From Buxus sempervirens (taxonomy: Eukaryota; Streptophyta; Magnoliopsida; Buxales; Buxaceae), in assembly GCA_947561395.2 (NCBI GenBank), contig OX387188.1, positions 7,114,150-7,178,149 on the forward strand: DNA of 64,000 bases. Direction: 5' to 3'. This document shows, one piece after another, positions 2,304-63,854 of this stretch. Both the position numbers and the translations under genes were made by a program. The notes under the pieces were generated by a model. It was not told the DNA's origin. It saw only the letters and a program-made list of their open reading frames with translations, and did not search any database. Every line of letters begins with the position of its first letter. Position 1 is the first letter of the stretch.

Positions 2304-2318
2304 GTCTCTTCTTCGAGG

Positions 2319-34126: not shown

Positions 34127-35149
34127 CTGCATGATTAGCAGCAATAAGTGGCGGTAGACGATATCATTCCGGTTGTGACACATTAGAAGGTTAGCTTCAC
34201 TAGGGCATGAGGCTAGTCCAGAGATCCAGATTGAAAATAAATAATTGAAATTGGCCCCACTGAAACATTCAATCTGATTTGATTGAGTTTGATATTTTGA
34301 GGTAAGGGTCCTACCAATTTCAGACCCTTAACAGTTCCTTCAAGTGGGTCCTATCAAGCTGTAGTGCCCCGAATTTGGATATATCCTTCATGAATAATCT
34401 AAACATGAAGTGCTAGCTCTCTGGCCCAGAGCAACTAATATCCAGACATGAATTCAAAAATAATTTTAAACATAAGAATTTTATCACATTGGAGTACGCT
34501 ATCAAATTCAAATTACATTAATATTCTTCAAATAATTGTAGAAACATGATCAACTAAATCATAACCAAATAATGATAAGTCTGGATAAGAAAATGTCAAC
34601 TAACACTCATCAACTCACTAGACAAAATAATAATCCTTAAATCAAAATAATATCCTGCTGATAATAACTGGAATGAAACCTACTATAACTCATCTACTAA
34701 AAATAAAACTCCTACAACAGACAAGAGTAATCATCCTAATGCTTAGCCCTTGAATGATTTACTCCATTAGTTACGTCCTCTTCAACAAGATCTGAAAACA
34801 AAACATTAAAAACACGGGCTAAGATATAAAAATCCCAGTAAGTAGCAACATGCATGAATAAAATAGTCTCATGTTGCTATCATAAAAATACAATTCATGA
34901 GGTATACAATTTCAACAATAGTCTAACTAATCACAATCCAAAGCAGTAAACATTTAACAAGTATTTACTAAAACAAATCATTAATCTATTCATGAGAATC
35001 AAATCAAATACACGGTGTGACTTCACAGGATTCGTGAAATACAATCACTTTGTAAAGGTAATCCTAGTCCCAATCTCCACCTCGCAGCTTATGTGCAAAG
35101 CCGACTTACTCTGAGTTTCGGACATCGACTTATTGTGTAAGAACCCAAT

Positions 35150-35640
35150 CCCCTCATGGAATAAGTTGGTGAGTACAATCCCGTCAAAGAACAACGCTGC
35201 AACATATCCAATAATAATACCTCACCCTCATGGTGGAAGCCAATCACTGCAGTACATTCCCTCATAGAAGGCCTCTCCATCATGGAGGGAACGTATAAAT
35301 GGAAACTAAGCTTAAGCCAAACAAAGATAGTCATACTTCACTACCTAGCTACAACTATGAATCCATAAAGAGCTAAGCCCGCTAGACACAGTAATCAAAA
35401 CCATATATCAATATAGTTTTATAGTGGTCCTCATGACCAAGCATAGTATTGTAGTGCCTTCATGGCTAAAATTCTGAAATCATGGCCCTCATGGTGAAGT
35501 CAATAATCATAGCCCTCATAGCAAAATCATTCCCTCATGGAGATAAGTTTATAATTACTGCCCTCATGGCAATGATACTCTGTCATGAAGAACAAATAGA
35601 TAATAAATAAAACCACCTCCCTCATGGAGAAAATCAATTT
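35150..35640 (-). repeat. Irregular CCCTCATGG array in the outer LTR
   Basis: The motif CCCTCATGG(A/C) or close variants (CTCATGG, CCTTCATGG) recurs more than ten times at irregular 25-60 bp spacing. It lies within the putative LTR intron, upstream of its acceptor. The other chromovirus LTRs here have a different repeat at the same place. Confidence 0.6.
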
Positions 35641-38600
35641 ACTCAAAACTATCAAAACCCAGGAAATAGGTTCAATCTACCTAAATTTGTAGGAAAGTAT
35701 TTTTGCACAATTCTGGAATTCAAAACTAATTCAAAACATATTTTTACAAGTTTGGAAACCAACGAATTACATAATAATTCAATTCTAAAGTCATTTTCCT
35801 TCTGGGAACCAAAACAAAAGCTATTTCAGTATAATGTAACCAAAATCTTTTATAATTTTTATAAAATTATTTGGGCACTGAAAACAACTCATAAACACCA
35901 AAATCTTATTTGTACATGTATTGGATTTGCCCAAAAATCATTTTATAATCAAATCTAGGTTAATTTCCTAAAAATCAGAAAATCTAAGTTGGGCGCTCAA
36001 CCTCTGTGTCAAGCGGCCTATCAATTTAGTTCACTAACAAGCGCTCAGCCCTGCACTCAACAGCATGTCTAACGGACTTTTAAGTATAATGGGCACTTAA
36101 CCAGGCACTCGAGCGGTGTGTCTAGCGCTTGTGTAAATTCGCTAAGTCTTGATTTTTAACAAAATTTCGAATTTTCTATTTCTTTTCTAAAGCTTGTTTT
36201 CATCATTCAAAGATCAATTCTATCTCATAAAAAATCATTCTCTAAACATAATAAACTAATCAAAACAATACTAAAAAAGTCTTCTCATTAAAATCACACT
36301 TTTCATCCAAAACAACTCAAAACCAGAAATATAAACGAGAAGAATAGATATCCTTTATCATTACTCTAAACCTCAATCAAACTCATCAAAAACATCACAA
36401 TTGTACTTTCCAATCATCCAAAATCCAAAGAACATAATATTGGTTGTCTAAACATTAAACCATGCAAGTTTTTGCCAATGAAAGGTTGCTACTTACATCT
36501 TTCGCAACCCAAACCAAACAAAACCTTCAATCAATGAGTTCTCTTCTCTCTAGCAGCAACAAAACCCCACGAAATCCCTCCCTTTGAACAGATCTGAAAC
36601 TCACGAGGATTCCGGGAAAATTTCACATTAGGTTTCTCCACTTCCAGTCATCCAAAGCAAACCAAAAGAATATTTAGTAAGTTCCCAGATAACAATACCA
36701 TATGTCCAAGTCTAATCCTTTTAGAAGTTCCCAAATAATAGAAACTCCTCAAGGAACCCCAAATCTCATGCATGCACACACCCAACTCTCTCTCCAAATA
36801 TCATTTTTAATTAAAACACAATCCCATGCATGGCTGTAAAATCCCGAAATTTTAATTAATAAATTAAAATTTGATTTTAAAATAAATAAATAATAATTAT
36901 TATTGATAGAAATTTCAGAAAAAGGAGAGTGAAGTTATTTAGGAATTTTCAAGAATTAAAAGGGGAAAATTTATTTTTCATGGTAAGTGTTTATTATTTG
37001 CAAATTTATGATATGGTTATAATTGAAATAACATGAGTTAATCATTGATTTAACGTTGGTGGTGTATGAAAATTTGGTGGAATGGCGTGGTAGCAAAACA
37101 TAAGAGTTTAAAACTTGATTGGGTGGCAACTATAAATGCGAGAGGTTAATTTGTTGGTTCAGTTAGTTGCTGGAGGAGGGAGCTGAGAATCAAATCTAGA
37201 AGCATCTAGAGCTAGGGTTTTGGTGAGAGAAATCTAATTGAGCAATGAAGAAGGAGCAGGTAAATTGATTGCTGATCTAATCTAAGAAGAGGAAGAAGTT
37301 CAGCAGAATTTCACTTGGCTGGATTTGGTGAAAGTTTAAGGAAATTGCTCACATAAGATCTAAATCAAGTACGTATGGTTAGGAATCCAGATTCTAATTT
37401 AATTGAAGTGAATCCAGAGAATTTAATCAGTATAGCTCAGATCTGGACGAAATTCTTTGTGAAATCAGATTTTTGAGTGGTGAAATTTGTCGAGAAAGGA
37501 GAACTTTGGAGTTTTGAGTTTGTAGGGGAATGGATTGAGTGAATCTTAGGTAAGTAGCACCTTTCTAAACTAGTTTTACGCTGGAATTTTCGGATTTGAA
37601 GCAAGTGACTTGAGATCGAATGATTAAACTCAGGTTTTAGTAGTTTTATTTATTTATTTGAAGAGAGATCTAGATCTTATGTTAAATTGTAGTTGGTTTA
37701 ATTAGAAAGCTTCTATTAATGATTTAGAAGATGTTTAGATGATTTTAAAGTGATTAAATTAGGTTTTGGTAGTTCAATTTTCGAAAACCCAGAAATTTCA
37801 CAATTCTGTTCGCGACATGAAATTTTGGCTTAGCGCCTACAATTGAGCTCGAGTGCGATTGTAGGCGTCTAGCCTGTGTTATTTTAAAAATCTCAGAACC
37901 TGAAAGTTGTGAAATATAGTTAGGCCAAGCACCTACAAGGATGCTCGAGCGCTATGCAAGTTGTTCATTTTCCAGATTTGAATCTCTTCAACGCTTGCAA
38001 GGATGCTCAAGCGCCATGTCAAGCGCCCAACACAGAAAACCCTACTTTTGAGAAATTTGAGGTGATTTCAACTATGGATTGGTATTTAATCAAATCCAAC
38101 TTATGTACAAATAAGATTTAGGTATTTAGAAAGTGTTTGCATATGAATTATCTCAAAATTCAATTTAATAAAGGGTTTGGGCACATTCTACTAAACTAGG
38201 TATTTGAGAGACTTTTGGTTCCAAATCATTATAGGATAAGTTTATTTTGATTCCTCCACTTTGTAGACACACCAAAATTGCACGATTTTTATAAACCTTG
38301 AAGGAGAGAAATATTTTATTGGAATTTTCAATTCTTAGCATTGGGTTTGAGATCCTTAACCCATTTGAATCAAAAACCATAAAGGAAAAGGCCCAAATTC
38401 AATCTTTTGCGCAAAGTCAAACAATTTCCGGTTGAATTTTGTAGACCTTTGACCCTAAAAAATGAAATATTTTTTAAGACAAGATTTCAAGATAATTTTT
38501 CCCAGTAATTAGGTTTTTAGCAATGTTATTGCATAAATGATTTTTTTGAGCCTTTAAATCTTGACAAATACTTTGGTATTAACAAGTTGAATCTTTTTAC

Positions 38601-38714
38601 CGGACCTGAAAAACTGGAATTTAGCCTTGAACTGGAAAGTTGACTTTTTATTCACTTGGAATTTGGGTCTGGAACTATTTTTAATGGATTCAAATTGGGG
38701 GGGGGGGGGGGTGT

Positions 38715-41164
38715 TGTGAGACATGAAAAAATCACCGAGATGATTCCCTCTGTCATCACACGGGCTCAACGAAAATGGGAGAGCCGCCACCATTCAATTT
38801 TTGGGTGTGAATGGACACCAAAAATCATCAAAATAAGCAAAAGGGACAAATACTAGAGTAAAAATAACTCTACTTGAAAATAAAATCCAGATATGGGTAA
38901 AGGGATTAGATTATGAACGGGGGAAGGTGTTAGGCACCCCCATTCACCCACACAAGGTGGTTGCCAAGTGTTGTTTATGCTAAAAAATGAGAAAGCTTGC
39001 TAAAATAATCAAAAACCTTGAAAAAGGATTAAACAAATGTCTGATACCTTCACATGAGAAATCCAAATGAATTCCAGATCTTCTTTTATGTCAATATCAC
39101 TTCTGGAATATCACCAATAGATGGAAATCAAAGCAAAAATTGCACAAAACCAAGTTGAGTCAAATCCGGAAAATTCGGTAAAAGATAGAGTCATTTGTCT
39201 TGAAATCATTCAAATCTAGTTTAAATTGAATCAAAGAAAATCCATTTGAAAGATTATGATAAATAGAAGACTCATGCAAATTTTCAATCAATTCCGGTTA
39301 AAATCCTAGGAGTTATTCTCCTTTGAAATCTGCTGCTGGAGATAGTTAAAAGTGACAAGTGGGCAACTTTGGAAATTCATTTAGCAAAATTGGCTCCATA
39401 TAAATCCATGAAATTTGGTGCGGATGAAGTATGTATGGTCATCTTTCAGATGAAACTAGCCTCATACAAAAATTCATCCGGATGTGCCGTGGGTGACCTC
39501 ACGAACAGGCCACGAGGATCACAGATTAACCCAGAAAAGTGCTGTTGAACAGTTCTGAGTAAATCTGTTACCCACGACACAAATGGAGTCAAAAAATTAT
39601 GAAACCAACTGGATTTAAAATTAAACTTCCAAAGGAAAGCACAGGAACAAAAATCACTCAAATCGGACTTAAACGAACACATGGCGCTCAGTAGAAGTGA
39701 CAGGTTCCGCAATCTGGCCTGAACTGACCTATCATCTTCGGTGTCAAAAATCCACTTCATAAAAATTGATGAAATTTTGTAGGCATAAACTAGATAGACT
39801 CACCTTTCCCATGGCTCTAAAATCACTCCAAAATTCATCCGGACGATGAAGTTACGAGTGTCCGAAGTTGGGGTACAGCTGCTGTCCCGTTTTGCCACTT
39901 TTAAGTAAAATCAATTCAAAACAGTGATTGGGTGTGTGTAATCCGTGCAATATGAATCAAAACCACTTTGAAGAACCTCTAGGAAGAAAGAGGGTACAAG
40001 TTTGGCTCACCATTCTCTCCGATTGGAAAGAATATGCCAAAAACCCCAAAAGTGAGCAAAAATGCCCAAAACCGAGAGGTTAGACCTAGAGGTCTTCAAT
40101 ACTCAAAAGAACTTGCTTGAAATCATTTTGAAAATCATTAAGATACATCTCAGAATTGCTTGGGGCTATTTATTCCAGATTTATCACAATGAATGCAATA
40201 GATCCAAAATACAAGCCAAATCCGACAAAACAAGTGCAATATGTGTGTATGCGTAAAATCATATCTTCAACAACGTAACAACATATAGCATGCATTCATA
40301 TCAATCAAATGGGGTTCTAAAACAACCTAGGGTTCTGTTCCATTCTCGTTTCCCTTAGTTCTCTCTCCCTATTTAACGGTTCTTCGAGATAATCTTGGGG
40401 TACTTTGAATATGAAACGGTTTTCATAGAATCAAAAGGCTTTTCAAAAGGTTTTAACACTAAGGATCAATCTTTAGTCTCGTTTCCCCTAGATCCCGCCT
40501 TCACGTTTTACTGTTAGGGGGAGTCTTGAGGTACTTTGAGTAGAGGAAGGGTTTGCATACACACAGAATAGGCCTTATTCTACAGAAAGGTAGAAGAAAA
40601 GAACTAAACCTAGAATGTAAGACAGAAAAATAAAGAAGGTTTTAGGCTTACCTGGGTTCTGGAAGCAGTGCGGCAGCGGTTCCCTTTTTCACTCGGAGCT
40701 CTTCAATCTCCAACTTATTGGCCATTTGCTTGAGGATGAGCCTCCTATTTATAGGCAAAGGCTAGGGTTAGGGTTTGCATGATGGTAGACACAAAATGAT
40801 GTCTAGAGTCCACCAACCTTAACCCTAAGGCTATTTCTGAGATTTCCACTCCTTTAATGAAGGATATGATGGTAAAAAGTGAAAACTCTCGGAAAACCCT
40901 AATTTTGAGCAAAAAGATTGTATCCGACATATCAGGTCGGATACAAGGGCACATATACGTATCCGACATATGTCGTCAGATACATTAATGCCTGCTTGTA
41001 TCCGACAACTTCTGTTGGATATGAAAGGATATGCTTGTATCCGACCTGAGTTGTCGGATACAAGAAAAAATGCTTATTTTTCAAATTTTGTGCTGGTTTT
41101 AAAGGAAAGAATGATTTTTGCCAATTGTTCATTATTTTTCCAGTGCAATTTTGGGGTGTCTACA
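38715..41164 (-). mobile_element. Solo LTR, Tat type, TSD GGTGT
   Basis: On the minus strand it starts TGTAGACACCCCAAAATTGC at 41,164 and ends CATGTCTCACA at 38,715 (2,450 bp). It is flanked by GGTGT at 38,710-38,714 and 41,165-41,169. It is a relative of the LTR it sits in, in opposite orientation. It has a TATA box on the minus strand (40,746-40,753), an upstream array of perfect TATCCGAC hairpins (40,918-41,064) and a primer-site-like TGGCGGCTCTC near its end. Confidence 0.85.
40918..41064. repeat. Array of TATCCGAC hairpins (LTR U3)
   Basis: Four units of a short inverted repeat. The first is TTGTATCCGAC, 7-nt loop, GTCGGATACAA (40,918-40,946; 11-bp perfect stem). The last is CTTGTATCCGAC, 7-nt loop, GTCGGATACAAG (41,034-41,064; 12-bp perfect stem). 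The middle two are partly eroded. They lie upstream of the LTR TATA box, so enhancer-like protein binding is possible. Confidence 0.8.
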
Positions 41165-41172
41165 GGTGTTTG

Positions 41173-41254
41173 CTTATTTACATGTAATATCTTAAGTAAA
41201 TGCAGATTAAAAAATACGAGGACATTTACTTAAATGATATTACATGTAAATAAG
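41173..41254. repeat. Near-perfect 30-bp palindrome in LTR
   Basis: CTTATTTACATGTAATAT... (41,173-41,202) is the reverse complement of 41,223-41,254 except for a 2-nt bulge, with a 20-nt loop. A decayed copy is at 59,060-59,138 with the same upstream context, so it belongs to this LTR family and is not a separate insertion. Confidence 0.75.
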
Positions 41255-41299
41255 TAGTGCCATGTAAGGGTCAGTGCTATGTAAAAGCTGTGCAGAGAG

Positions 41300-41515
41300 T
41301 CATTTTTGCCCTGAACCAAAATTAAAGTTCGGATAAAAGCATTTTTCTTTGTATCCAAAATTATAGTTCAGATAAAAGCATTTTTCTTTGGATACAAGCC
41401 TTTTTCTTTGTATCCGAAATTATATTTCGGATAAAAGCATTTTTCTTTGTATCCGAAATTATATTTCGGATACAAGCCTTTTTCTTTGTATCCGACCTGA
41501 GTTGTCGGATACAAG
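41300..41515. repeat. Array of TATCCGA(A/C) hairpins (LTR U3)
   Basis: Four or five units alternate with an AAGCATTTTTCTTT-like spacer. TATCCGAAAT, 3-nt loop, ATTTCGGATA (41,411-41,433) occurs twice. The final unit is TTGTATCCGAC, loop, GTCGGATACAA (41,486-41,514). The loop and stem sequences differ from the nested relative while pairing is kept. Confidence 0.75.
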
Positions 41516-43108
41516 TGTTTTGCTCCAAATTGGAAAATCCTGAGAGTTTTCACGTTTTTACTATTTTACCTCTGTTTGAGAAGTGGGGATTCCCAAATCT
41601 AACCTTCGAAATTAACCATATTATTCAAAGTCCATACTTAATTTAGGGTTAAGTTGGAGGGTTCTAGACACATTTTTGTGTCTACCATTAGGGCTCAATT
41701 CCCTTGAGTTTGCCCTAATTCTTGTCTATAAATAGAGGGCCTCCCCTCAAGCAAAATGCCAGAAAGTGGAGATTGAAGAGCTCCAAGTGAAAAAGGGAAC
41801 CCCTTCCTCTCTGCTTTTAGACATCCAGGTAAACCTTTAACCCTTTTCTTTTCTAGTTTTAATTTCTAGGATTATTCTGTCTTCTACTTTCTTCTGTAGA
41901 ATAAGGCCTATGTGTGTGGTTGTTACCCAAACCTACTTCCAAGTACCTCAAGACTACTCTCTAGCTGTAGGGCAGACCCCCATATGTTATAATCTTAGAA
42001 ATGTGTGGTCTTAATATTTTGTTTAGGTTGTATGATTGATTATTGATGAAATATGGAAGAATACCATGGATCTACGCTGTTCACAGCATTAGATCTCATT
42101 TTCCTCATATATTTTGATTTTTCACATTGTTTTCTCCCTTTTTTTTTATGTTTTTTGATGTTTTTTAGTCATTTGGGCTAAGATCTTGGATCCGCCATTG
42201 TCCATATGGTAGATTTGGGATCAGAAGCCTTCCAATAATCTCTAGGGTTTCATGAGGTGGTTTTGGAGTCATTTTTGGTTTTTGAGAGAAGATCCTACGG
42301 TCTAAGCTCTCCCCTTTTGATGTTTTTTCATCAACGTAGGTATATTTGGTTTATATTTTTTATTTAATAAGAAATATGGGCTAGATCTATGTCCTGGATT
42401 GTTCAGATTCAGTTCTGCAATATTTTGTAAAAATAATAATTTTTTTTATTCCTAGATTTCAAAGATTTTATTTAAAGCCAGTTTTTTTGAAGTTTTTATT
42501 TTAGATTTGTTTTCTTTTGATTTCAGTCAGTCATGAAGCCCAAGAAATGACTTTTGTTTTCATAAGAAGGATCCAGAATTAATTGGATCATTCACATGGA
42601 AAAAAGCCATACATTCCTTGTTTCCTTTTACTTTTGTTTTGATTTTTATTAGCAAGCATTTTTATAGTATGAACAACACTAGGCAACCACCTTGTGTGGA
42701 TGAATAGGGATGTCTAACACCTTCCCCTATTTATAATCTAATCCCCTTACCCATCTATGGATTTTTATTTTAAAATAGAGTTATTTTTACTCTAGTTTTG
42801 CCTTTTTTATTTTATTTGATGATTTTGGTGTCCATTCACACCTAAAATTGAATGGTGGCGATTCCTCCCTTTTATGAATTCCGTGTGATGATAGGAAGTC
42901 ACTAGATTGATTTTCCATGTCTCACACACTTGGAACATCTTTCTGAGACCTTTCCTAAGGTGTTTCCAAATGCCAATTATAAATATGAGCTTATACCAAA
43001 TATTTAGCCACCTATTCTACCAAATTGGCTTATTTTATGGTTAAAAGTGGATTTTATGATTTCACACAAACTTATAATGATTCTAAAGATTTTTACTGAT
43101 GTGATCCT

Positions 43109-46100
43109 TGTAAGCACCTTATTTTTGCACCCCTGGAATTGCTGAAAATGAAAACCCTAGCAGAAAGTCAAACCCCAAGGGGACAAAAAGTTGACTTTTT
43201 GATTAAGTGATATTTGGCCACCTTGCTTTATATCATTGGATAGAGAATCTCGACACGATTCCAATGCAACTGAGTTTGCAGGAATCGGAGTCCGGATAAA
43301 GGTTCGGCGGGCAGTCAAACTTAAGGGAGAGCCGAAAGTTGACTTTTCCTCGAATTCCGTGCCAAGTGCTTAGCCACATATCATTGGATAGAGAATCTCG
43401 ACACGGTTCCAACGCAACTGAGTTTGCGGGAATCGGGGTCCGGATGAAGGTTCTGCGGGCGGTCAAACTTACGCGGAGCCAAAAGTTGACTTTCTGCTAA
43501 AATCCGATCCGGAGGCCTACCCCTAGGTCATGGGATGGAGGGCTCCGATACGATTCTAATGAAACTAAGTTTGCCCAGATCGGAGCCCGGATGAAGAAAA
43601 TATGAGCTGGCGAAGTTCCCGAGCAGCAAAACCGGCGAACTGCGCACGTGGCAAAAAGCTGCACACGTGGTGAGTTGCGCAGAAAAATATCTCGGGGATC
43701 AAATCCATAAATATCCAAACATTCAAAATATCCCAGGGACCAATCTGAAAGTATTTGAAAATATCTGAATAAAATAATATTAAACCTAAATATCCCAGGG
43801 ACCATATCCTAATTTTCAGATTTTAAAAACAAACGAGCGGCGGCATTTATTATTTTGAAATGATTCGGTCGCTCGCGCGAACGTGGCAGGGGGTATGCGC
43901 TCACCTTGAGCTAGGCGCCAAGGTGAGCGGCACCCCATTTCCCTTGCCTATATAAGCCGCGCAGGGTTTCATTTCCGGGGGTTGGAAAATTTTGGTGAGG
44001 TTGGCTGATTTCGGGTTTGGAGAAGTTTTGGTGGGAGAGTTCCGGTTGGGCATTTTCTGGGTTCGGGATTTTGAAGAAAAGACCAGACACACTCCTTCCC
44101 TCCCTTCCTCTTCCTCCTCATCAAACCCGAAGAGGATTTTGTTGTTGGTGCTCCGGCAGCTGCTCGTTGGCTCCAAGGAACCCTCCGGCCTACTCTACAG
44201 AGACCTAGAACCAAGGTGAGCTCTCCGTTTTCTTTTGTTAAATGTATACAAATCAAGCTTCCCGTTCATCTGTAATATCTGGTTTGTCATTGCTTGCCTG
44301 ATTCGAAGGGGGAGCCTGTTCCCCCATGAATTCTTCATCTCGTGTACCCCATTATAAACCCCCTTGTCCCTTCACTGTTAATTTGTGGATGTGTGATTTT
44401 GTGGTTCGGTTTGCGATATGTTAGATTAGGTTAATTTCAATACAAGTTTAAGTGCCTTCTGGGGAGTGGTCGAAGCCCGGGGAAGTGTTCTGTGCATGAT
44501 ATTCGTGAAATATTTCGAATGCATGGTTGCATTGTAAGTTTTCTGGGTTTTAAAAAAACTTGAAATAAAATGTAGTTAGATTAAATCCAAAATTAGTTGG
44601 GAGGTGTTCTGAGCATGTTAGGAGGCTAGTGGAACAGTTACAGACCGAAAAAAATCGGCCAGAGAGGGAGATCTCAAAAAAACAGAGAGTTGAAAATTGC
44701 AGGGACCTGCCGCCCATCTGGCGCCCACCTGGCGCTCACCTAGGAGGTGGGCGCCCCTTTCATGTCACTTCCCGCCGAGCTGGCGCCCACCTGGCGCTCA
44801 GCTCGCGCCCACCAAAAAACAGGCGAAATTCTGGCGCCCATCTCGCGCTCACCTCCCGCCCAGCTCGCGCTCACCTGGTATCGGGTGAGCGCCAGGTAAA
44901 AATTTCGCCCGGATTCTGGCGCCCATCTGGCGCCCACCTGGCGCTCACCTCAGGAGGTGAGCGCCAGGTCCAAAACAGGCCGAATTGCTATTTTTTTTTG
45001 AAAATTCCAAAAATACCCTTTACCATACCGCGGGGGGCTTCGCCCCGCACCCCCACCCCTTTGTTCGCTACGCATCCAACTCGTACCTTGGTACGGGGAG
45101 GTACCCCACCCCGTGGGCTCCACTTCGCTTCGCCCACAGGGCCCCCGGGTACCTCCCCTTGGACCCAGCACAATGAGCCAATTTTTTCTTGATAGGGTGT
45201 CAATTTTGTGTATTTTCTTATGTGATTATTGCTGAATGTGGGTTTTATTTCCAAACCGAACCGGATGAACCAATAGGGTTCCCGGGTCACCCCGAAACCC
45301 AACATGGGCCATGGACCAACCCGGTCCAAATTGATTTCCGGTGGGCCTTCCAACGGGGCCCACCAAGCCCGACCAACCCATTCATGCTTAAATAAGATAA
45401 TAAAAGATTTGAGTGGGCCAGACCACTTGAGGCCCACCCAAGCCCTAATTGGGCCATGCATGATTAAAGTAAGATATGGTTTGGCCGAGACCACGGGTAG
45501 GGCCTATCGGGCCCACTAAGCCCATGAACCCGACCAACTTAGGGTTTCCAAACCCTAATTCAGGAAACCTTGGGCTTTCAAGCCCAAGCCCAGGTAAAGG
45601 GCCCCAAGCCCAATGCTTGGCCCATTTTGACACAGATAAGAAAGATAAAATCAAAATCACTTGGCAACCAATTGTGGGGCCCACTCAAGGGCCCACAAAG
45701 CAATCACGGCCCACTTTTGGCATGAAATCCACTTAACTAATCCAACTTGAACTCTAAAATAAAATCAATTCAAAGTAAGCCAAAATCCAAAGGGCCACGC
45801 TTGGCCCACCAAGGAACATGCGGGCCACATTTGGCCCACTAAGGGATACCGTGGGCCTTCCAACGGGGCCCACCCCACCAGGCCCAGATCATCTTAATTA
45901 AAAAGATAAAATCAAGTAAAGGGACCCACACCACTTTGGCGGTCCCGCCAGACTTAATCAAAATTGCATGCTGGAATAGGAATCGGGTGAGTGAGAGACC
46001 AAAGTTGACTCAAACCAGGGAAACCTATGGGACCCGTCACTTGACGGGGTGGACTGGGGTGTCTACGGACTTCCCCAGACCGCAACCGAGCCCCTACTTA

Positions 46101-51420: not shown

Positions 51421-52161
51421 TACTTCCTGCGGGAGAGATTTATTACCTCATGTGGGGCAGATGTTTTTCTGATGGATTGCATCCTACAGGAGAGATACCT
51501 CATGTGGAGGAGATGTGATTATGCGTGATTGCATCCCACATGGAGGATGGGTGTGTGAGTTACCACTGAAAGGTGAGGAAGTTATCTCCTACAGTAGAGG
51601 TAGATGCTAAGTGTTCACATCCTGCGGTAGAGTTATGCTGTCTCCTGCAGGGGGTACTTGTAGTCTTAGAGATGTGCATTCTCCTGCGGAGCTTGTGTGG
51701 ATACTACGTGTTTGCGTTCTATGGTAGAGATAGGCTACTACCTGAAGGTTGGCTTTTATTACTGATATGGATTACTGATATGGATTCTCAGGTTGATGGA
51801 TTTTTTATTTAAAAAGGAAATATTGAAATGTCATAACTGAATAGAATTGCTATGAGTTAATGAGAACTGTTAAAATGGAATATTATGGAATCATGAATAA
51901 AATGTGGAACTGCTCTTAAGAAGACACTAAAAAAAATAAACCAGGAACCATGGGAATGTGAAATATAATACATTGTCCTTTAAATTGAACGGAAATGCAC
52001 AGGATTAACTTCTTTTATTTCGGGCACTGAGTAAATGTTTGTTTTATATTGAGATTATTCGTTTATCTTATTGACCGTAATTAGTCGTCTATTTTACCGA
52101 GCATGAAACCACTGTTATTTTCTATATGTATAAATTGTTTCCTCATGCATGTGTTACCTAT

Positions 52162-52179
52162 TGAGATATTCGTATCTCA
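52162..52179 (+). promoter_or_regulatory. LTR hairpin TGAGATA-TTCG-TATCTCA
   Basis: Perfect 7-bp stem closed by a TTCG loop. It is followed 26 nt downstream by a polypyrimidine tract and the CAG acceptor ending 52,205. Confidence 0.7.
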
Positions 52180-52940
52180 CCCCTACTTTATATTCTATTT
52201 TTCAGGTCATCTTGGAGAGGACGCCACGGGTTAGACAGATAATGGGTTGAAGCCTAGAAATTCCATATGAAAAGAGTAGGATGATTTTATATAGTTGTAT
52301 TTATTTTATTGGAATCATAATAGATGATTTGGTAGGATATTAAGAGTTAGTTAATTTGTAGTTGCCTTCATTTGAGTAATTGATGTAATAGGGAGATTCA
52401 GTTTATAATAAATGATTTAAGCTTCCTAGCACTCTGATAAATCTTAGTTCTTTATTTCCTTATATTTGAACTGATTGTAATGTACCACAAGTTAATGCCT
52501 TGATCCAAGTCAAAATGAGAAAAAAAAATGACCCGGATTCGGGGCGTTACACTGCGGCTTTCTCTCATTTTATCGTGTACTTGGACTATGACTGGATAGT
52601 ACATGCCAACCCTTCGTTGTACTGGTTGGGTTCTCCCATAATAAGAGGATGATCGTGTATTTGGCTTCACACATAAGCCAGGAGGTGGCATAGTAGACAT
52701 TGATATTATCCTAGCTAAAGGCAGTCTTATTTCATGAGTCCTATTGTGACTTATTGATTTCTGATTCGAAACTACAGATTTGATTGACATGCTGGATTAC
52801 TCGGGTTTATCTCATATTGATTGATGGATTGTTATTGGATTATTTGGATCATCCGTGTTATCATCACTGTTATATGTTTTATAACTGATTCATGTTTTAA
52901 AGCTAAATGAAATGTATTTGAGCATTCATGTGCTACTTGT

Positions 52941-52958
52941 TGGGATATTCATATCTCA
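52941..52958 (+). promoter_or_regulatory. LTR hairpin TGGGATA-TTCA-TATCTCA
   Basis: Same position as the hairpins in the other LTRs. One G-T wobble keeps the 7-bp stem. The acceptor CAG ends 22 nt downstream at 52,980 after a long T-run. Confidence 0.65.
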
Positions 52959-53433
52959 TTCGATTTTTTTTTGTTTTCAGATCTTGGAGAGGACGATACT
53001 GAAGGGTAGATGCTTGGATCATGTGAGTCAGATTTGAGTTATAGTATTTTATAATCGAGTTTGGGAATATAGTTGACTTTGATTATTTGTTTTATTGTTT
53101 ATTCATGTTTTCCTTCACTCTGATATATAGATCCTGTAGATTAGTTAACTCTTCGAAGATGAGTTACAGTTTTACTACATAACTTGGATCCGGGGTTTTA
53201 CAATGGCACTCCATCATGCTCCATGCATTCAACCAATAGAATTAAGGATAAGTACTAAATCTAAGTCACATTATAACTCAAGATCTAGCCGTTGGATCAA
53301 CTTCAAATTCTGGTTCCACACACCCTCCACATGATCACCTAATTAAATTAAATCTTTGATTAGCAAACTAATATCCATAAATCACAGATTTAAATTAATT
53401 AGTTAATTATTTTGAAAAATTCAGGGTGTTACA

Positions 53434-53590: not shown

Positions 53591-53599
53591 TTTTTTCCA

Positions 53600-55260
53600 G
53601 TTTGTCTGATGGCCATCGGCAAAGATCAGACTTGTCTTTGAATTTTTTCCAATTCATCATTTTGGGCTATTTCACAGCCAATTGATCTCAAAATTTTTGA
53701 AACTTGGTTTAAGCACATGGGATTGAAATCATTTTTTGCCCTAAGGCAAGATTGATGAACGCTCAGAAGCGATTCAGATTTTTGAATTTTTTTTCTTCTT
53801 TTAGGAATGAGTTGATCAAGCATGTTTATGCAGATGATCTGTAAGTGTGTGCACTTGATGCATGAAAAATGCGTACACAAAATTAAAGCAAAGATTAAAT
53901 GATATTACCCATCTGCACAATTAAAAAGTGTGTGCATAATTCTAAAAAGGTTGGTGCCCTTTTGAGGCACGACTCCTGGACATACTTGTGTATGGAAGCA
54001 CATCTGAGTCTAAATCAGCCTTCTTTCATTTTTTCTTTCATCTGCCTTTGCTTTCAGGTGTCAGACCAAAAGAATTGACAATTTGCCAGCAAGGGCGAAA
54101 ATTACATGATATTCAAAATCTGAAAAATTTCATCCTAAGGGCTTTTGGGAACCCAAAAGAAGGGTACAAATTTGCTTCAAGGCAGGTAGGCTGGATTCCT
54201 AGATCTAGGGTCTTATGCCCCTGTTCTGATCTGGCCTATTTCTGCCTGATTTTCTAATCTGGCTGGCTTTCATTTGCTCAAAAGGCCGACCTGGATTCAA
54301 AGTGCTCCCGACGGACTCAATGGGTCAAGGCCTACGGCTTACGGGACTCAATGCTTGGATCTGGGGTGGCTCCCTTGATCAGAATTTAGTTGGCTTCCTA
54401 AATTAGGGCTAAGGCAGCCCATGATCTAGGGTTTACTCAATTTGATGTAAAAGAATGGGGGTACTTGCCCTTGATGGACTCTTGGATTTTAAATTGCTTT
54501 TATTTTCCAATATTCACATTCATATCCATATCCATACTGTATTCACAAAGCTGCGGTTTATCAGAAACAATAGGTGGGGAAAGGGTACCCAACCCGAGAC
54601 ATTTGCCTACAAGGGTCTGGGCCAAGTACTAGACCCTCGCCTACCACAGCATGAAGCCAGTGGCGCTAAGGAATCCAGAAACCTGGGGAGATGGGTTTAC
54701 CCTACTTTCCCAAGCAAGCCACGGGAGTGTTGGTCTAATACCATCCCAAAAGTAAGTTTATCGAAATAGAAGGGTGGCTTCTAAGGAGGTCTAAGTTTTG
54801 GTAAGTAGGAGCAGCATTTCATTTCATCATAGCATTCAAATCGGATCATCCACGCAGACTTCCTCGTGCGTGTCACCCCACACAGTTTAATACAGAAAAG
54901 GAAATCATCCACGGTGTGGTGGAGTGCTTATGTGTGCAGTTGGGCAAAGTGCTGTGTCTATTTGGGTGAGTTTTGGACATTTGATTGTTAAAAGGGTTCC
55001 TTGTTATCTCTTTATAGTGAAATGCAGAATTGGCACGCAATACGATGTCCGGGAGAGTCCCCAGGTAAGTGGAGGGTCACGGGGAACCACTTAAATTCCA
55101 CTTTCCTTAGGCAATTATCTCGTCCTTTTGATAGGACTCCCCAGATCATGCAATTACGCGTATTCCGCATCTCACTAAGGTAAGATAATAGGTAATACCT
55201 AAACCGATCTATATCCATCTAAGTTGACTCTTTGAACCAGGGTCCAATTGGGTTGAGGGG
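53600..55260 (-). mobile_element. 5' internal leader of a Tat-type element, fossil
   Basis: Sequence downstream (on the minus strand) of the Tat-type primer site at 55,261-55,278. No gag or pol domain is recognisable; the short frames look random. The left border with the chromodomain remnant is not sharp and lies near 53,590. Confidence 0.4.
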
Positions 55261-55278
55261 TCTCCAGCGGAGTCGCCA
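55261..55278 (-). promoter_or_regulatory. Tat-type primer binding site
   Basis: On the minus strand TGGCGACTCCGCTGGAGA, three bases after the LTR end (55,282). The TGG start and match to the Tat/Ogre-type primer sequence I recall (TGGCGACTC...) support reverse-transcription priming by a tRNA. The exact tRNA is not proven here. Confidence 0.7.
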
Positions 55279-56093
55279 AGCTGTGCGCACCCGATTTCGG
55301 CCGCATGCGAGGTGCACGAAGAAGTGATGCTCGCCTTGGGACTATTTGGAGTCGCCACTGCCTGAGAGGTGCAGGCAGACACAAAGGGGCACCTATTCGG
55401 GCCTAATTATTCTGGTCTACGGCTTTTTAGAGATCTGAGCAAGTTCTCGGTTACGTCTAGAGAAGTCTGAAGACACCCTAGCCCGCCCCATCGATTGACG
55501 GGTTCCATGGGTCTCCTTGGTTCGAGTTAACTTAGTTCTCACCCAACTCCTAAGCTAGCATGCACATTTATTTGGTCTGGTGGGGACCATTGAGGGTGTA
55601 AGTCCCCTTTTTATTTGATTTTATCTTTTTATCTGTTAATGAAGTGGGTTTGGTATGGGCCCTGTTGGAAGGCCCAGTGGAATCCATGTTGGGCTTAAGT
55701 CAAGCCCAAGGCCCAATTTGGGTTATTGGGTAACCCTTATTGGATTTTGGCTATTTGGTTTAAAGGTTCAATTATACTCACACAATTTAGTGGGTTTAAG
55801 TTTTTAAGGCTTATCGGGCTTGGATTGGGCCCAAGAACAATTAACCAAGTGGCCTTTTGCCCATTTATTGAAATGGGCCTTGATTGGGCCAGACGGGATG
55901 TGGGCCCCATTGGAGGGCCCACGAAGCCTTGGTGGGGCCACTTAGGTGCACAGTCTCAAAATGGGCTTGGAAAAGTCCAAAAAGCCCAATGGGTCAAGTC
56001 TTATAAAAATGGGTCGGATTGGGTCCAATCGGGTTTAAAAAAATGATTTTTAAGTTATTATTTAATTTGCTCGTATTTATTATGCGGACTGGG

Positions 56094-56120
56094 CTGAACC
56101 GTAAATGTAATACGGTTCAG
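56094..56120. repeat. Perfect 10-bp hairpin in Tat-type LTR
   Basis: CTGAACCGTA, 7-nt loop, TACGGTTCAG. It belongs to a series of CGTATTTGAAT-like inverted units in this LTR. Confidence 0.7.
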
Positions 56121-57009
56121 GCCTGCCCACATATTAAATACGGGCAAGCCTGAACCATACTTCAAATACGATTTTCGCCTGAATTTCCAGAAAACGCCGC
56201 GATAGCCTCAGAATCCGAGTCGCCGACTCCTTTTTACCTTCCACCGATTTCAGTTGGTGATTTCACCAGCTTCCACGGTGATGGAATCGCCTTTCTCTTA
56301 GTTAGAAAGTCTTCCTTTTGTGTATCTCGCCAAAAGGAAAGATCTTATCATATGCCTAGACAGCCCAAAAACCTGCATGAATGGGAAATCGAGAAGGGAG
56401 AGAGGGGAAGGATTACGAGGTACATTAAGAACCAAAGAGGACAGGACCCCTCTTTACAAATATAAACAAATTAACATAAGAAAAGTTAGTTCAAAACAGT
56501 TTATTGGAACTCTCTCTTCCTTTGTTGTTTCGCGTGGGGGAACTCCCCTCCCGGGGAGTCCCGTTTATATGCACCAAGTAAACAGATTAGATAAAAAGAG
56601 TAAAATAAATAACAGCTTTAAAATGTCAAAATGATTACTTATTCAGGGAACTTTGAGGGCAATGTAATACAAAGCTAATTAAAAGCTTACCGTGCTATTA
56701 TTATCTTGTTCTGAGGTGTTGAGATTCTCCGGATGATTTTGGCAGCGCTTCCGCGCTTCCGTTGATTCCCCAAAATGGGCTTGAAAAGGACCTCCCCTCT
56801 TTGGGTTGAAAGGGATTGAAGGTGAGGAGGGAAGGTGTAGTCTAGGGGTATTTTGGGAATATTTTTGGGCTAGTGGGGTTTTGGCAAAGCTTGGGTAGGG
56901 GTTGGTCATGGAAAAGGCAGAGAAAGAGAGGGGAGAGGCTAAGGGGGACCAGCTTACACAAATGGGGGGGGGGGGGGGGGGGGGGCTTGCCCCCTATTTA
57001 TAGGCTTTT

Positions 57010-57245
57010 TTTCGTCCCTGTATTTGAAGTGCGGGCATGCCTTGCCTGTACTTCAAATGCGGGAATTCGTTGCCTGTACTTCAAATGCGGGCGAAATAAA
57101 CACGTTTTAAAATCTCGTGAATCCGCCAGCTGTCGCCGTACGGGACGTGTGTCCTGCTTCTAAAAGGCTTGCCCGTATTTGAATTACGAGCAAGCCGTAT
57201 TTGAATTACGGGCATGCCTCGCTTGCACTTCAAATACGGGTGCAC
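57010..57245 (-). repeat. CCCGTATTTGAA-type repeat array (LTR U3)
   Basis: At least six copies of CTTCAAATGCGGG/CGTATTTGAATTACGGG-like sequence, some of them self-complementary. They lie upstream of the minus-strand TATA box, like the TATCCGAC arrays in the other Tat-type LTRs. Confidence 0.65.
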
Positions 57246-57819
57246 ACGTTTTTTAAATGCTGGATTTGAAACACTTTATTAAATTTGATTTTTAATAAAG
57301 ATTTTATCCGATTTTTTGATTATTATATTATGAAAACGAGATTTTTTATTAAAATATTATTAAAAATAAATATATTTCTATTAAATGATTATTTTATTTA
57401 TTTTATTCATTTATTCTGCTTTTTTGCTGCTGTTTTGCCATATGGACAGCTTTCCTTGAAACTTCAACTGCCCATAACTTTTTCGTCCGATGTCCGATTT
57501 CAGTAAATTTGGTATCGTTGGAATCAGCTCGGAACGCTCTATCAACTGGGATCAAATTGGGTAGTTGAATTGGGGTCAAGCAAAAAGTCAACTTTTGCTC
57601 CCCCAAAAGTTGACCGACTCATAACTTCCTCATCCGGACTCTGATTCTAGCAAACTCAATTGCATTGGAACCATGTCGAAATGCTCTTTTAAATGAGAGG
57701 AAGTTTGATGGCCAATTATCTTTGGATTAAAAAGTCAATTTTCAGGCCCCTCAGGATTTGACTTTTTAATTAATTTTTATTTTCTGCAATTTTCGGGGTG
57801 CAAAAATCAGGTTCTAACA

Positions 57820-58757
57820 GTTGGAATGACTTGTGATGAGTGTATTGGGATATACATGATGGTGATCAGTGTTGGTTTATTATTTTGCAAGTGTTGGGTT
57901 TTATGAAATTGTTATTTTGGTTTTGGTTTTGCTTCCCTTGGATCCATATTTAAGCTTAGTAATGTGATGGTATTGTTTGTTGGTGTAATTGCATGGCCTT
58001 GTGTGTTGCCACGATCGGTGTAGAGCAGCCAGAAACCTTGAGTAGGCTTGGTTGTCAATGCCAAAACCTAGGGAGTAGGCCGGCATTGGATGACGAAACC
58101 CTGAGTAGGCTGTCATTTCAGAGTTCCGAAATCCTGAGTAGGTCGGAACTGTGTACATGGAGGTGTGGAGGTCTACTTGGCATGTTAATTAACCAATTTA
58201 AACAATAGGCATGACATTGACCATTCAATGTGTTATCGGTATTGTTATTAAGTTGAATTGGAAATATTATTGTTTTTAGATTTTAAATTTCAGAATTGTC
58301 TTGGTTGGTTTAATCGTGCTGGCTATTTATCGATGTATATTTATAACTGGTGTAAACTATTTCTGCATGCATATGTTACTCCTTGAGATATTCGTATCTC
58401 ACCCGTTGTTTTTGTTTTGTTTTCAGATACTCGTGGTGAGGCGACTACTGGGGTAGATCCAACAGATACTTATAGAGAGGAGGATTATTATTACATTCCC
58501 TAGACTAGTAGGTTTTTATTTTTAGACTGGAACTTGACTCTCTTTTGATTTGGAATTGTAATAAGGTAGTTTGATGTTGAATCGTTTGAATTTTAATTAA
58601 AGATTATTATTGGACTTCTCAGTAAAATTTTGGATGTGCACTCTGATATGGTAATTTGGTGATTGTCCAGTGATCACATTTATTTTTGGGATCCTTACCT
58701 AACACTATGTGAGACTTGTTATATCTTTAATGAACAACACGGATCCGGGGTGTTACA
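57820..58757 (+). mobile_element. 3' part of a chromovirus-type LTR, fossil
   Basis: Plus-strand LTR end (...GGATCCGGGGTGTTACA at 58,757), same family as the solo LTR at 47,467-49,926. It includes the CCTGAGTAGGC repeats (58,030-58,150), the hairpin TGAGATA-TTCG-TATCTCA (58,384-58,401) and the acceptor (CAG ending 58,426). Its start is not seen; the Tat-type LTR borders it on the left. A primer site follows it. Confidence 0.75.
58384..58401 (+). promoter_or_regulatory. LTR hairpin TGAGATA-TTCG-TATCTCA
   Basis: Same hairpin as in the other chromovirus-type LTRs. The T-rich acceptor (GTTTTGTTTTCAG) ends 25 nt downstream at 58,426. Confidence 0.7.
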
Positions 58758-58761
58758 GAGA

Positions 58762-59440: not shown

Positions 59441-59455
59441 CTAAATGCCTTATTA

Positions 59456-60299: not shown

Positions 60300-60894
60300 G
60301 TAAGTGTACCACAAAGTATCACCCAAGTATACTTAAAGTACCTTCCAAGTGTACCCAAATTTCCATCTAAGTGTACCCAAGGTACCTCTCACATGTACCT
60401 CAAGTAACTCCTAAGAGTACCTAAAGAACCTCCTAAGAGTACCCAAGGTACCTTTCAAATGTACCTAAAGTATCCCCTAAGAACACCAAAAGTAACTCTC
60501 AAGTATACCCAAGGTACCCTTCCAAATACCACTAATGTACCTCTTGTGTTATCCAAGATACCATCCAAGTATACCTAAAGTACACCAAAGTATTACCCAA
60601 GGTACCACTCAAGTATGCCAAGGGTACACCTATGCGTTACTTAAAGTACCCCAATGTATTACCCAAAGTACACCCATATATTACCTAAGGTAACCCATGT
60701 ATTTGCCCAAGGTACCCCCCTGATTTACCTAAAGGTACCCCTTTGTGTTACCTAAGGTACCCCCTTATATTACCTAGGTACCTTACTCATATTGCCTAAG
60801 GTATCCCACTATTTTGCCTAAGGTGCCCCACTGTTTTACCCAAGGTACCCCATTTGTATTCCCCAAGGTACTCCACTTATATACCTAAAGTACT
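60300..60894 (+). repeat. AAGGTACCCC / AGTGTACCC tandem array
   Basis: More than twenty imperfect units, spaced about 20-28 bp, around GGTACC or AGTACC with CCTAAG/CCCAAG. They grade from AAGTGTACCC on the left to AAGGTACCCCAC on the right. The same units continue at 63,860-64,000 beyond the nested LTR. Confidence 0.85.
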
Positions 60895-63854
60895 TGTAAA
60901 ACCCCGAATTTCCACTTAATAAATAAATAAATAATAAATAAAAGAAAAATGAGTTAAGTAAAGATTTAGGGTAAGTAATTCAAATAGGTCATAAATTGTA
61001 AATAAAGAAAGAATTTTTAATGAAATTAACCTAAAAGAGTAAAAGGGTATTTTGGTAATTTTCAGAAAAAGGTAATTAGTAAATAGATCATCAAATAATA
61101 ATTAGAATTAAAAAATAGAAGAAAACAAATTATTTTGACAAGTTAGAAATTAATAAAAGCCTAAAAGTGGGAAAAAGGGTAATTAGGAGATTTCACGTCT
61201 TAATTTGGAAAAAATAAGGTTTTAGGCGATAATAATGTTTAATTAAATATTTTGCACGAAAATAGGTTATAAATAGGAGTTTAGATAATAAGAAACTTAA
61301 TTAGTATTGTTTAAGTAGAAAAATAGAAGGTGGAGAAAAAGTAGGAATTAAATTAGAAGGATTAGACTTTAACTAGACCATGGTTGGGTTAGCCCAAATT
61401 AAATTAGCCAATTAGGGTTGGTTTAGGATTTCTAAAGCCTAATATAAATAGGAAACTAAGGTTAGAAAAGAGGAAAATTTCGTGGGTTATTGTTGAGAAA
61501 AAAGAGGGAGAGAAAGGAAGAAGGTGGCTAATGGAGGTGTTTGACCAGCCATCATCAAACCATAATCGCGGAAGATCTGTACGGTGGATCGCCTTCAAAT
61601 TTGGAGGTTTTGGTCTTCACTGATGGAACTACATTGTGTACGGTGGAGATTTGAATTGGGAGAGTCTAGCTTGGTGCGTTTGGGAGCAAAAGTAAGGTTT
61701 AGAATTAGAAGTTTCAATGGAAGAAGGATTTAGCATATAAAGCAAGTAGTAACCTTGGAAAACGTGAGGAATTGCATGATTTGGTTTCCTATGATTTCAT
61801 ATTGTTTGAATGGATTAGTCGGACCTGTATTTACATGGAATCAAAGTGCTTATAGTTTAATGATTTGTGTTCTTGTTGTATTTGTCAAAAATAAAGAAGA
61901 AGCTTAGCTTGATTATGTAAATTAATATAGGAGGGTATTTAATTTATAAAAATTACTCTAGAAGGTTCTAGGTATGTTTCAGAAGGTTTGTAGATTAATT
62001 TAGACTAAGAAAACATATGGCAAAGGCCTAAAAATCCGAACTTTAAAAATCTGAAAAATTCTGTTTAATTTTGCACGAGCGCCTAGGATCGCCTAGCCCT
62101 GTAGAGGTCGGCGCTCTATGTAAAATTTGCAGATTTTGGGGATTTTGTAATTTGAATAAATATCCAATAATTTTTATGATTAGTTAAGCATGTTAGCATC
62201 TTTATAAGGACCTAAATAAGGTATAAAAATTATAAAAATTAAATGGGAAAGATTATTCAATAAATTGAAGGTTTCAGTGAAAGGTTTGTTTATAAAAGAG
62301 TCAAAGGGTATGGATATTGCTAGAAATAATATTACGGATACTTATGGCTTATAAACATCTTCTAAACTTTATTTTAGGCCTGTAGAACATGTTGGAGAAA
62401 TAAAATACAGAAAATTCAAATAGAAACTAGCTTAGGTGTTAAGGTAGGAAATTTGGATTCTAATAAAAGGGATTAATAAAGAAAACTCTAAGTAAAATTG
62501 GATTTACTTTATTTTGAGCTTTAAATAGGAATATTGGCTACTGGAATTGCATAAACTCAGATTTTATCGGATTTATGATACTTGAGTTTTATTTTGAATA
62601 TAATTGGAAGAATTGCATATGTTATTCTGAAAAAACCTATAATTGGATTTGTTATGATTGAATCATGATTTTCATATAGAATGGAATACTTGGGTATGGT
62701 TTGGTAAGTGGTATGATGTTGTTCACTTTACTTTTACGGTTGGGTGATACGGCTTCTGTGGTTGAGTTGATATTAACTTTTACTGCAGAGATGGGTAATC
62801 CTCTGTGTAGAGATGTGTAATCCTTTACGGGTAAAAGTGTGTATGCCTCCTACATTAGCGTGTCCTCTCGTATGTGGTTTTATCGTGGTTTGTGTCAGTG
62901 GGCTTAGCTGTATATGGATCCATAGTTTTGGCTGGTTAGCTAAGTGGTATTTAGTTTGGGTTGAGTTACTCCTATATGCGAGCACGCTTCCCTTGCAAGT
63001 TAGTTTGCTCTGGGAAGGTCCTATGTCTGGAGGGACACCCCAATGAGCCGTTGGTGATTCCCTGTACATGTGGATAAGCGACCACACTCCATGTATTGAT
63101 TCTGGTGCTGCATGCTGGTGGTACATCCAACTCTGCGGGGTTTGTGTGCAATAAGTCGGTGACTACGGCTCTTGCCTAAGCTGCGCTGCATGGGGTTTGA
63201 GTATCATTAAGTAGCACTGCCCCTAAGCTGCACGGTGGAATAGCATTTAGTTGAGTGTCATCTCAAATACTTATCATCTTTGTGAGTCCTGCAATTGCAC
63301 GTGTTTTATCGCTTTTGTCAGTTTTACCTCGTTAACATCAAATTACTGGTATTTATACATGATCATCGGTTTTATTGCTTTATTTGTAATTGCCATGGAT
63401 AACTTGGATTTCTTGTCTTATCGTTGATTAATCGCATACCTCATGACTATTTGCTTACATTGGACTGTTTCTAATTGCATGCACCTGCTACTTGCTGAGA
63501 TGTAAATCTCACTCCGTTTTCCCCTATTTTTCAGGTTGCTTGGAGAGATCTCGAAGATGGGGTTTTAATTTGATGGGTAGAATTGTAATTGGTACTAATG
63601 TCATATGTTGATTAAATAAACCTTATTGTAAACTGAATGGATATTATTGAATTTTGAATTGTTTTTATTGGCCACCGTAACTCTAATATATTTAATTAAA
63701 GTTTTAAAATTATTGTGAATCTTGGTTTGTATCTGACCCCAGCTTCGTGGTAACACCTCGAGTTTGGTTGTTGAACCGGACTTGGGTTGTTACAGTAGCG
63801 AACCGGGATCGGGTTGGGTGCTGCTTTGCATTGACCCGGGTTCGGGGCGTTACA
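60895..63854 (+). mobile_element. Solo LTR (chromovirus type), TSD GTACT
   Basis: Starts TGTAAAACCCCGAATTTCC and ends GGTTCGGGGCGTTACA (2,960 bp). It is flanked by GTACT at 60,890-60,894 and 63,855-63,859, within the GGTACC array. TATA box TATAAATA (61,443-61,450). Donor-like GCAAGTAGTAACC (61,742), GCGC patch (62,078-62,118), weak repeats (62,780-63,240), hairpin TGAGAT-GTAA-ATCTCA (63,496-63,511), acceptor (CAG ending 63,534). Confidence 0.85.
63496..63511 (+). promoter_or_regulatory. LTR hairpin TGAGAT-GTAA-ATCTCA
   Basis: Perfect 6-bp stem with a GTAA (GNRA-class) loop, in the position where the other LTRs have a TTCG loop. The acceptor CCCCTATTTTTCAG ends 23 nt downstream. Confidence 0.7.

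Follow-up and report, generated by a model that had tools for sequence, protein, structure and literature searches.

A 64,000-nucleotide stretch of the Buxus sempervirens genome (assembly GCA_947561395.2, contig OX387188.1, positions 7,114,150 to 7,178,149; referred to as the window) raises the question why five long terminal repeats (LTRs) of retrotransposons carry the same series of parts in the same order, with no match of at least 120 nt between any of them in a self-BLAST. The first-pass annotation, which had found most of the remaining LTR sequence unalignable by eye, described a donor-like motif, a GCGC-rich patch, a lineage-specific tandem array, a hairpin and an acceptor, and suggested a leader intron of 1.5-2 kb carried within the LTR. 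Each of the ten positions named there indeed bears a donor- or acceptor-like site, whose exact bases were re-located. What had been missed is the complementarity between the donor and the acceptor side, as well as a probable second intron. Altogether, the sequence data make it reasonably probable that a helix between the donor and a partner beside the acceptor, together with intron 1 and a probable intron 2, would split the transcripts of these elements into messenger and genomic RNA.

In the following, W1 to W5 denote the five LTRs of the window and L-numbers denote loci fetched from the 676.5-Mb genome; all comparisons lie within this one genome. Pattern counts are whole-genome totals, each set against a control, and individual places refer to the first 100 matches listed. 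The donor GTAAGTAGCACC occurs in 904 copies compared to 14 for the reversed pattern. The acceptor-side pattern TACTYRYTGRGATATTYNTATCTC showed 3,869 copies, its TACC variant 2,348 and its GNRA-loop variant 918, with a control of 0 in each case. Counts this far above the controls confirm that the shared module is not a product of chance. In a genome search with the module of W1, the window copy was the sole match. The order on the acceptor side is the partner, directly followed by a hairpin (TGRGATA-TTCG-TATCTCA or TGAGAT-GTAA-ATCTCA) and then by 22-31 nt with a pyrimidine-rich tract up to YAG. This arrangement of tract and YAG was found in 51 of 56 listed modules; for the other five, no YYYAG was seen in the scanned interval. 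The A closing the hairpin, which lies in CUCAY, is a possible branch point.

The central observation is that the reverse complement of the donor adjoins the acceptor. The complementarity involves intron 1 from +1 to about +11 and the partner directly 5' of the tetraloop hairpin, with 1.3-3.0 kb between the arms, and the helix spans the stretch that U1 small nuclear RNA must bind. The pairs comprise GTGAGTAGCAC with GTGCTACTCGC in W4, GCGAGTAGCAC with GTGCTACTCGC in L030, GCAAGTAGCAC with GTGCTACTTGC in L038, GTGAGTAGCAT with ATGCTACTCAC in L045, GTAAGTATCAT with TTTGATACTTGC in L044 and L086, and GTAGGTGACAC with GTGTTACCTAC in L063, L068 and L067. In W1, GTAAGTAGCAAC forms 12 of 12 Watson-Crick pairs with GTTGCTACTTAC. 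In W3, GTAGGTAGCAC and GTGTTACCTAT seem to form a G.U intermediate that links the TACT type to the TACC type.

Loci were collected by patterns that restrict partner bases, and donors by a motif in which most positions are fixed or restricted and which makes no use of the partner; a motif-defined donor was present in 40 of the 57 loci examined. For these 40 loci, the pairing score was 400 compared to 363.8 with permuted partners (sd 4.4, highest 383.5), and none of 5,000 permutations reached it. Co-variation with the partner was seen at positions 3, 4, 8 and 11 of the donor among the 32 distinct pairs: the numbers of Watson-Crick pairs were 28 vs 16.5, 30 vs 22.1, 23 vs 15.8 and 23 vs 14.5, respectively, with 1, 0, 2 and 0 of 2,000 permutations as high. 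The same pairs include 38 G.U but only 5 A.C combinations in 352 cells, an excess that was partly forced by the search. When one random copy was taken from each identity cluster to limit the influence of shared descent, the mean z was 6.5 for 24 clusters at 90% identity and 5.4 (lowest 4.4) for 17 clusters at 85%. Accordingly, it is very likely that the donor and partner arms co-vary as paired sequence. The mean duplex energy amounted to -14.8 kcal/mol with the own partner, -11.4 kcal/mol with swapped partners and -10.0 kcal/mol with U1. In unguided folds of the whole intron, the helix was highly probable in five of ten chosen copies (L063, L065, L045, L048 and L053), with a probability of about 1.0 in L063.

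Several features of the interval between the arms point to an intron. In 29 of 31 donors an A occupies position -2, which belongs neither to the helix nor to the search motif. AG directly precedes the donor in 18 of 31 cases compared to 12% in the background (binomial 1.5e-9, calculated over related rows), and the flanks of the donor show a mean conservation of 0.20 bits. In the GNRA-loop lineage, all six fetched copies comprise AG/GCAAGT, and their position 2 forms a C-G pair. The distribution of ATG compared to a dinucleotide shuffle changes at both sites. In the last 150 nt of exon 1, 26 ATG were counted vs 70.0 in the shuffle. Within the intron, the values were 109 vs 99.8 (+1 to +150), 72 vs 82.3 (+151 to +300) and 435 vs 454.4 in the last 300 nt before the partner, and in exon 2 they were 28 vs 54.5 (+1 to +100), 70 vs 68.2 (+101 to +200) and 48 vs 58.0 (+201 to +300). 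The G+C content shifts alongside this pattern (44% to 33% and 42% to 32%), and the intron is T-rich downstream of the donor. The GCGC patch was observed as described before, with GGCGC/GCGCC concentrated at +200 to +500 from the donor (0.81-1.65 per 100 nt), 0.27 in the bin after +500 and at most 0.20 in all other bins from -400 to +1,800. A TATA box had been placed 270-420 nt before the donor. In the up to 700 nt available upstream, TATAWA was indeed found in 23 of 32 donor contexts, but the distances are widely scattered (202 nt in the young copy L063), and the rule is a loose one.

If the leader were spliced and the product copied back, LTRs with joined exons would be expected. Junction-type patterns, which demand an exact exon 2 start, gave no convincing match in two lineages with 1,125 and 1,715 intact acceptors; the one match in each (ATTTAG and ATTCAG) resembles an altered pyrimidine tract, and GAG-type junction patterns gave 0 matches. 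This result fits the earlier suggestion that unspliced RNA is the template for new copies, but it equally fits a leader that is not spliced at all. Based on the donor rules, the GC-donor lineage and the shifts in ATG and G+C, a leader intron within the LTR is nevertheless the best reading of the sequence, and a spliced intron 1 of the GT-AG or GC-AG type, about 1.5-3 kb in length and located entirely within the LTR, is likely. A group II or other self-splicing intron is presumably not involved, since the ends are wrong for it.

The first 75-90 nt past the acceptor contain an acidic, tyrosine-rich frame ending in a stop, for example EEDYYYLP before the stop (L012, L010, L038, L031, L045 and L088), and this frame is common to lineages with diverged DNA. 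Two coding explanations were considered. A coding exon 2 would place the acidic tail (e.g. TRGEATTGVDPAEAYREEDYYYLP and stop) in phase 1, but no open frame in this phase is common to the exon 1 sequences, which leaves the tail without a start codon. A Pol frame that enters the LTR and is joined to exon 2 by splicing was rejected for L089, where its stop comes some 20-25 nt after the LTR border.

Downstream of intron 1, the gag start was found in seven of twelve fetched full-length candidates (in L110 by its peptide), and in three lineages a branch-point-like motif, a pyrimidine tract and CAG lie 0-6 nt ahead of the gag ATG. In the TACC type (L103, L104, L108 and L071), the ATG immediately follows TTCTAAC...TTTTGCAG. 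In the TACTCGC type (L109, L111, L112, L072 and L017, as well as L110 by peptide), TTCTTAACTAAT...GTGCTTACAG lies 6 nt before it, and in the third lineage, L118, TATCTAAC...GCATTCCAG lies 5 nt before it. One pattern for the TACC-type acceptor-like site at gag occurs in 77 genome copies, with a control of 0. L118 was the one useful locus among four further full-length candidates, of which two comprised neither module nor primer-binding site (PBS) on either strand and one a module without PBS. In L113 (C1 38.62 Mb), a locus of the GNRA-loop lineage, a PBS is present while the gag start was not found; it is perhaps a non-autonomous element.

The distribution of AUG codons agrees with a second intron. 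In L063, exon 1 (172 nt, counted from TATA+30) contains no ATG and intron 1 (1,456 nt) contains 37; exon 2 is again free of ATG over its first 98 nt, followed by 14 up to the gag ATG, and a second-donor candidate (TGAG/GTGGAT) is located at +91 of exon 2. L017 is similar: the final 200 nt of its exon 1 lack ATG, intron 1 (1,562 nt) has 41, and exon 2 has none in its first 124 nt, the first lying at +125, and then 14 up to the gag ATG; here, second-donor candidates lie at +27 and +82. The first ATG of exon 2 was found at +99 in L103 and L104 and at +124 to +129 in L109, L111 and L112, while in L118 it lies at +41 and is severed by the candidate donor TCAT/GTGAGT at +43. Exon 1 of L119, a copy of L118, comprises no ATG past -142, with the TATA at -154, and exon 1 of L120 none in 281 nt. 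The unspliced RNA carries 51 and 55 AUGs ahead of the gag ATG in the two copies examined; after double splicing, the gag ATG would be the first AUG. An intron 2 reaching from the LTR across the PBS to just ahead of the gag ATG therefore seems somewhat more probable than its absence.

These parts can be combined into a putative switch. With the helix closed, the donor would be hidden and the RNA would stay unspliced, so that the GGCGCC patch and the PBS are retained and the molecule could serve as genome. With the helix open, both introns would be removed, leaving a short AUG-free leader with the gag ATG first, which could serve as messenger RNA. The spliced RNA would thus be readable without being reverse transcribed, and the unspliced RNA copyable while hardly readable. 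For this long-range switch with a PBS-removing second intron, we regard the chances as evenly balanced. The GGCGCC palindromes, retained only in unspliced RNA, could be a dimer or packaging signal.

A number of observations weigh against this interpretation. Regarding the helix, no motif-defined donor was found in 17 of 57 loci, or 16 without L030, in which the donor was lost at the locus edge and is visible in the sequence. The invariance at positions 1, 5, 6, 7, 9 and 10 is uninformative because the donor motif and the partner patterns fix or restrict these bases, which is also part of the reason for the G.U excess, and positions 2 and 12 showed no significant co-variation. When single linkage at 75% left just 4 clusters, the mean z dropped to 2.3 and up to 130 of 500 permutations were as high, which is not decisive. 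Unguided folds did not contain the helix in five of ten copies (L064, L060, L058, L059 and L040), of which all except L040 had partners chosen for rare or changed bases, and the hairpin probability was below 0.15 in four of ten folds. Regarding the introns, the lack of spliced LTR copies has the second reading given above, ATG at -400 to -250 is likewise below the shuffle (63 vs 87.6), and W1, W2 and W5 carry an ATG within 150 nt upstream of the donor. The gag start was not seen in five of the twelve candidates (L105, L106, L107, L113 and L114), the second donors are weak and lineage-dependent, and L108 comprises an exon 2 ATG at +25 with no second-donor candidate.

The pairing itself can also be explained differently. 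A helix that aids splicing by holding both ends of a long intron full of repeats close together would account for the position of the partner, which in every retrieved locus lies just upstream of the hairpin and acceptor, and for ends that stay paired while the intron length ranges from 1.3 to 3.0 kb; in human genes, long-range pairings close to splice sites have been catalogued, as far as the accessible text of that study goes (PMC8052449). Such a bridge, however, need not include the GU, whereas the helix covers +1 to +11 and with it the U1 site, and its average energy is stronger than that of the U1 duplex. On this basis a bridge is unlikely, and a helix that masks the donor rather than bridging the intron ends, and thus would repress splicing rather than help it, is fairly probable. 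Alternatively, paired ends and hairpin could be a structure of the genomic RNA, such as a packaging, dimer or translation-start signal, with a secondary likeness to splice sites and little splicing. The missing spliced copies in the two lineages searched, the G.U-tolerant co-variation, which indicates RNA structure, and the GGCGCC palindromes located in this interval would all agree with this. It does not explain why the A at -2, outside the helix, is kept, why GC donors, preceded by AG, appear solely as a splice-legal change, or why the ATG depletion ends at the donor and restarts at the acceptor, and we consider it quite improbable.

Two further explanations do without RNA pairing. As one word occurs in two inverted copies at the module edges, the arms could be DNA-level inverted repeats, either two sites for one protein or remnants of terminal inverted repeats. 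The surplus of wobble pairs over A.C mismatches, partly forced by the search as it is, the exchange of the TTCG loop for GTAA on a retained stem, the location of the second copy some 50 nt short of the 3' end and the strand-specific splice signals leave very little room for this. Similarly slight is the probability that the arms are simply old LTR sequence whose matching changes are lineage markers. The weakness of the test with only 4 clusters at 75% linkage speaks for shared descent alone, while compensated changes at four donor positions with several pair types, next to flanks averaging 0.2 bits, speak against it. The masked donor thus remains the preferred interpretation of the five LTRs.

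In the window, all five LTRs are solo and nested, as no LTR pair was found by self-BLAST. The ends are TGTAA/TGTAG...TTACA, and 5-bp target-site duplications occur at the given ends of four of the five. W1 lies on the minus strand; its 3' part covers 34,360-36,834 and the remainder 53,203-53,433 past nested insertions, as determined by self-BLAST and LTR ends, and no target-site duplication was seen at its flanks. Its donor arm is located at 36,485-36,496, the partner at 34,838-34,849, the hairpin 5' of the acceptor at 34,820-34,837 and the pyrimidine-rich tract with the acceptor CAG at 34,792-34,819 (last G at 34,792). W2 (plus strand, 36,835-53,202, duplication ATGGC) is split by later insertions including W3; it comprises the donor arm GTAAGTAGCAC at 37,550-37,560, the partner GTGCTACTTGT at 52,930-52,940, the hairpin at 52,941-52,958 and the pyrimidine tract with acceptor at 52,959-52,980. 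W3 (plus strand, 46,816-52,551, duplication CTGCG) is in turn split by W4, with its donor arm at 50,126-50,136, partner at 52,151-52,161, TTCG-loop hairpin at 52,162-52,179 and tract with acceptor at 52,180-52,205. For W4 (minus strand, 47,467-49,926, duplication GTAAG), the donor arm lies at 49,323-49,333, the GGCGCC-rich patch at 48,954-49,055, the partner at 47,837-47,847, the TTCG-loop hairpin at 47,819-47,836 and the tract with acceptor at 47,793-47,818. W5 (plus strand, 60,895-63,854, duplication GTACT) shows the GC-type donor arm GCAAGTAGTAA at 61,742-61,752, the partner CTGCTACTTGC at 63,485-63,495, a hairpin with a GTAA (GNRA-type) loop at 63,496-63,511 and the tract with acceptor at 63,512-63,534.

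The tandem array that had been described for every LTR was found by Tandem Repeats Finder inside the intron of W3 (51,050-51,545, plus strand), but not in every intron. W4 contains short GC-rich repeats only, and the arrays at 60,301-60,893 and 63,860-63,993 flank W5 and lie outside it. The latter form an array of 22/44 bp with many GGTACC palindromes, into which W5 seems to have been inserted. A sixth acceptor-side module with partner, hairpin, pyrimidine tract and CAG had been overlooked at 58,373-58,426 (plus strand); it sits in an LTR piece related to W4, and the interval 55,000-58,300 yielded no matching donor. Elsewhere in the window, exon-like open reading frames at 2,304-3,827 and 20,287-21,867 (both plus strand) match the middle and C-terminal domains of AP5B1, a subunit of the AP-5 complex. 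Between them, reverse-transcriptase-like frames lie on the minus strand at 5,081-6,454 (zf-RVT) and 9,000-10,529 (RVT_1), as if a non-LTR element sat in an intron of an AP5B1-like gene.

The elements to which the LTRs belong are diverse Ty3/gypsy LTR retrotransposons. Pfam reported RVP_2, RVT_1, RT_RNaseH and Integrase_H2C2 in this order for L069, and RVT_1, RNaseH and H2C2 for L070. The designation as chromovirus-type is supported only in part: the gene order is that of Ty3/gypsy, but a chromodomain was not reported by Pfam at E 0.001, while SH3_Tf2-1, Integrase_H2C2 and rve were. From the LTR ends and the tail, we assume a resemblance to Tekay chromoviruses. The gag assignment is weakly supported, with PF03732 at E 0.00099 in L072, under its cut-off, and nothing in L071. 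L088 and L089 form an LTR pair that is 99.3% identical over 2,288 columns, with the LTR start TGTAAAACCCCG, the TATA at LTR position 235 and the donor at about 435 by offset; the acceptor is TTTAG in the 5' LTR and TTTCAG in the 3' LTR. The PBS-like TGGTATCAGAGC follows ...GCGTTACAGAGA, which places intron 1 inside the LTR and upstream of the PBS, not within or between coding regions. Three modules at C1 8.88, 8.94 and 9.00 Mb (L017, L018 and L019) are 61,027-61,028 bp apart with identical printed leaders, which suggests a 61-kb tandem segmental duplication.

The closest parallel for the proposed masking effect is the splice donor (SD) hairpin of human immunodeficiency virus 1 (HIV-1), in which, according to the accessible part of the report, the 11-nt 5' splice site of the leader is masked from U1, keeping enough RNA unspliced (PMC4974535). 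In both cases RNA structure would mask a leader 5' splice site. In contrast to this local hairpin of a retrovirus leader, the partner in the Buxus LTRs lies 1.3-3.0 kb away beside the acceptor, and the intron is inside the LTR. For BARE1 of barley, a Ty1/copia element, the available text describes distinct pools of RNA for translation and for replication, as well as splicing, a U-rich intron and a G+C contrast (PMC3735527). Here, the U-rich intron and the G+C contrast are observed, and the two pools and the splicing would be counterparts. In BARE1, however, 104 nt just past the end of the gag coding region are removed, with the result that Gag alone is produced, whereas here leader introns would be removed, the second one with the PBS. 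A review, as far as accessible, names Ogre and EVADE as notable exceptions among the generally intron-less plant LTR elements (PMC12786077); their functional introns lie between or within coding regions, while those predicted here start inside the LTR. In human pre-mRNA, intronic complementary regions near splice sites have been linked to splicing; these belong to host genes without a mobile element, and the accessible text does not describe them as an acceptor-tied mask (PMC8052449).

Some plant genes have leader introns near the promoter, in the 5' untranslated region, that enhance their expression. Unlike the introns proposed here, these are not located in an LTR and comprise no donor mask. 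No description of an intron inside a plant LTR was found in the open literature searched, with some of the term sets being narrow. In a sunflower long-read study, spliced copies of other elements were reported, and the accessible part names no Tekay member among the expressed set (PMC7730604); therefore, such RNA may be scarce.

How transcripts are divided between translation and replication is called a major question by the BARE authors in the available text (PMC3735527). For the elements of Buxus, the leader may itself encode the partition of a single transcript into message and genome. If this is true, the LTRs would represent a natural, often repeated experiment in keeping the pairing of a 5' splice site through sequence drift. 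Furthermore, solo LTRs with working leader introns could supply promoters and introns to host genes.

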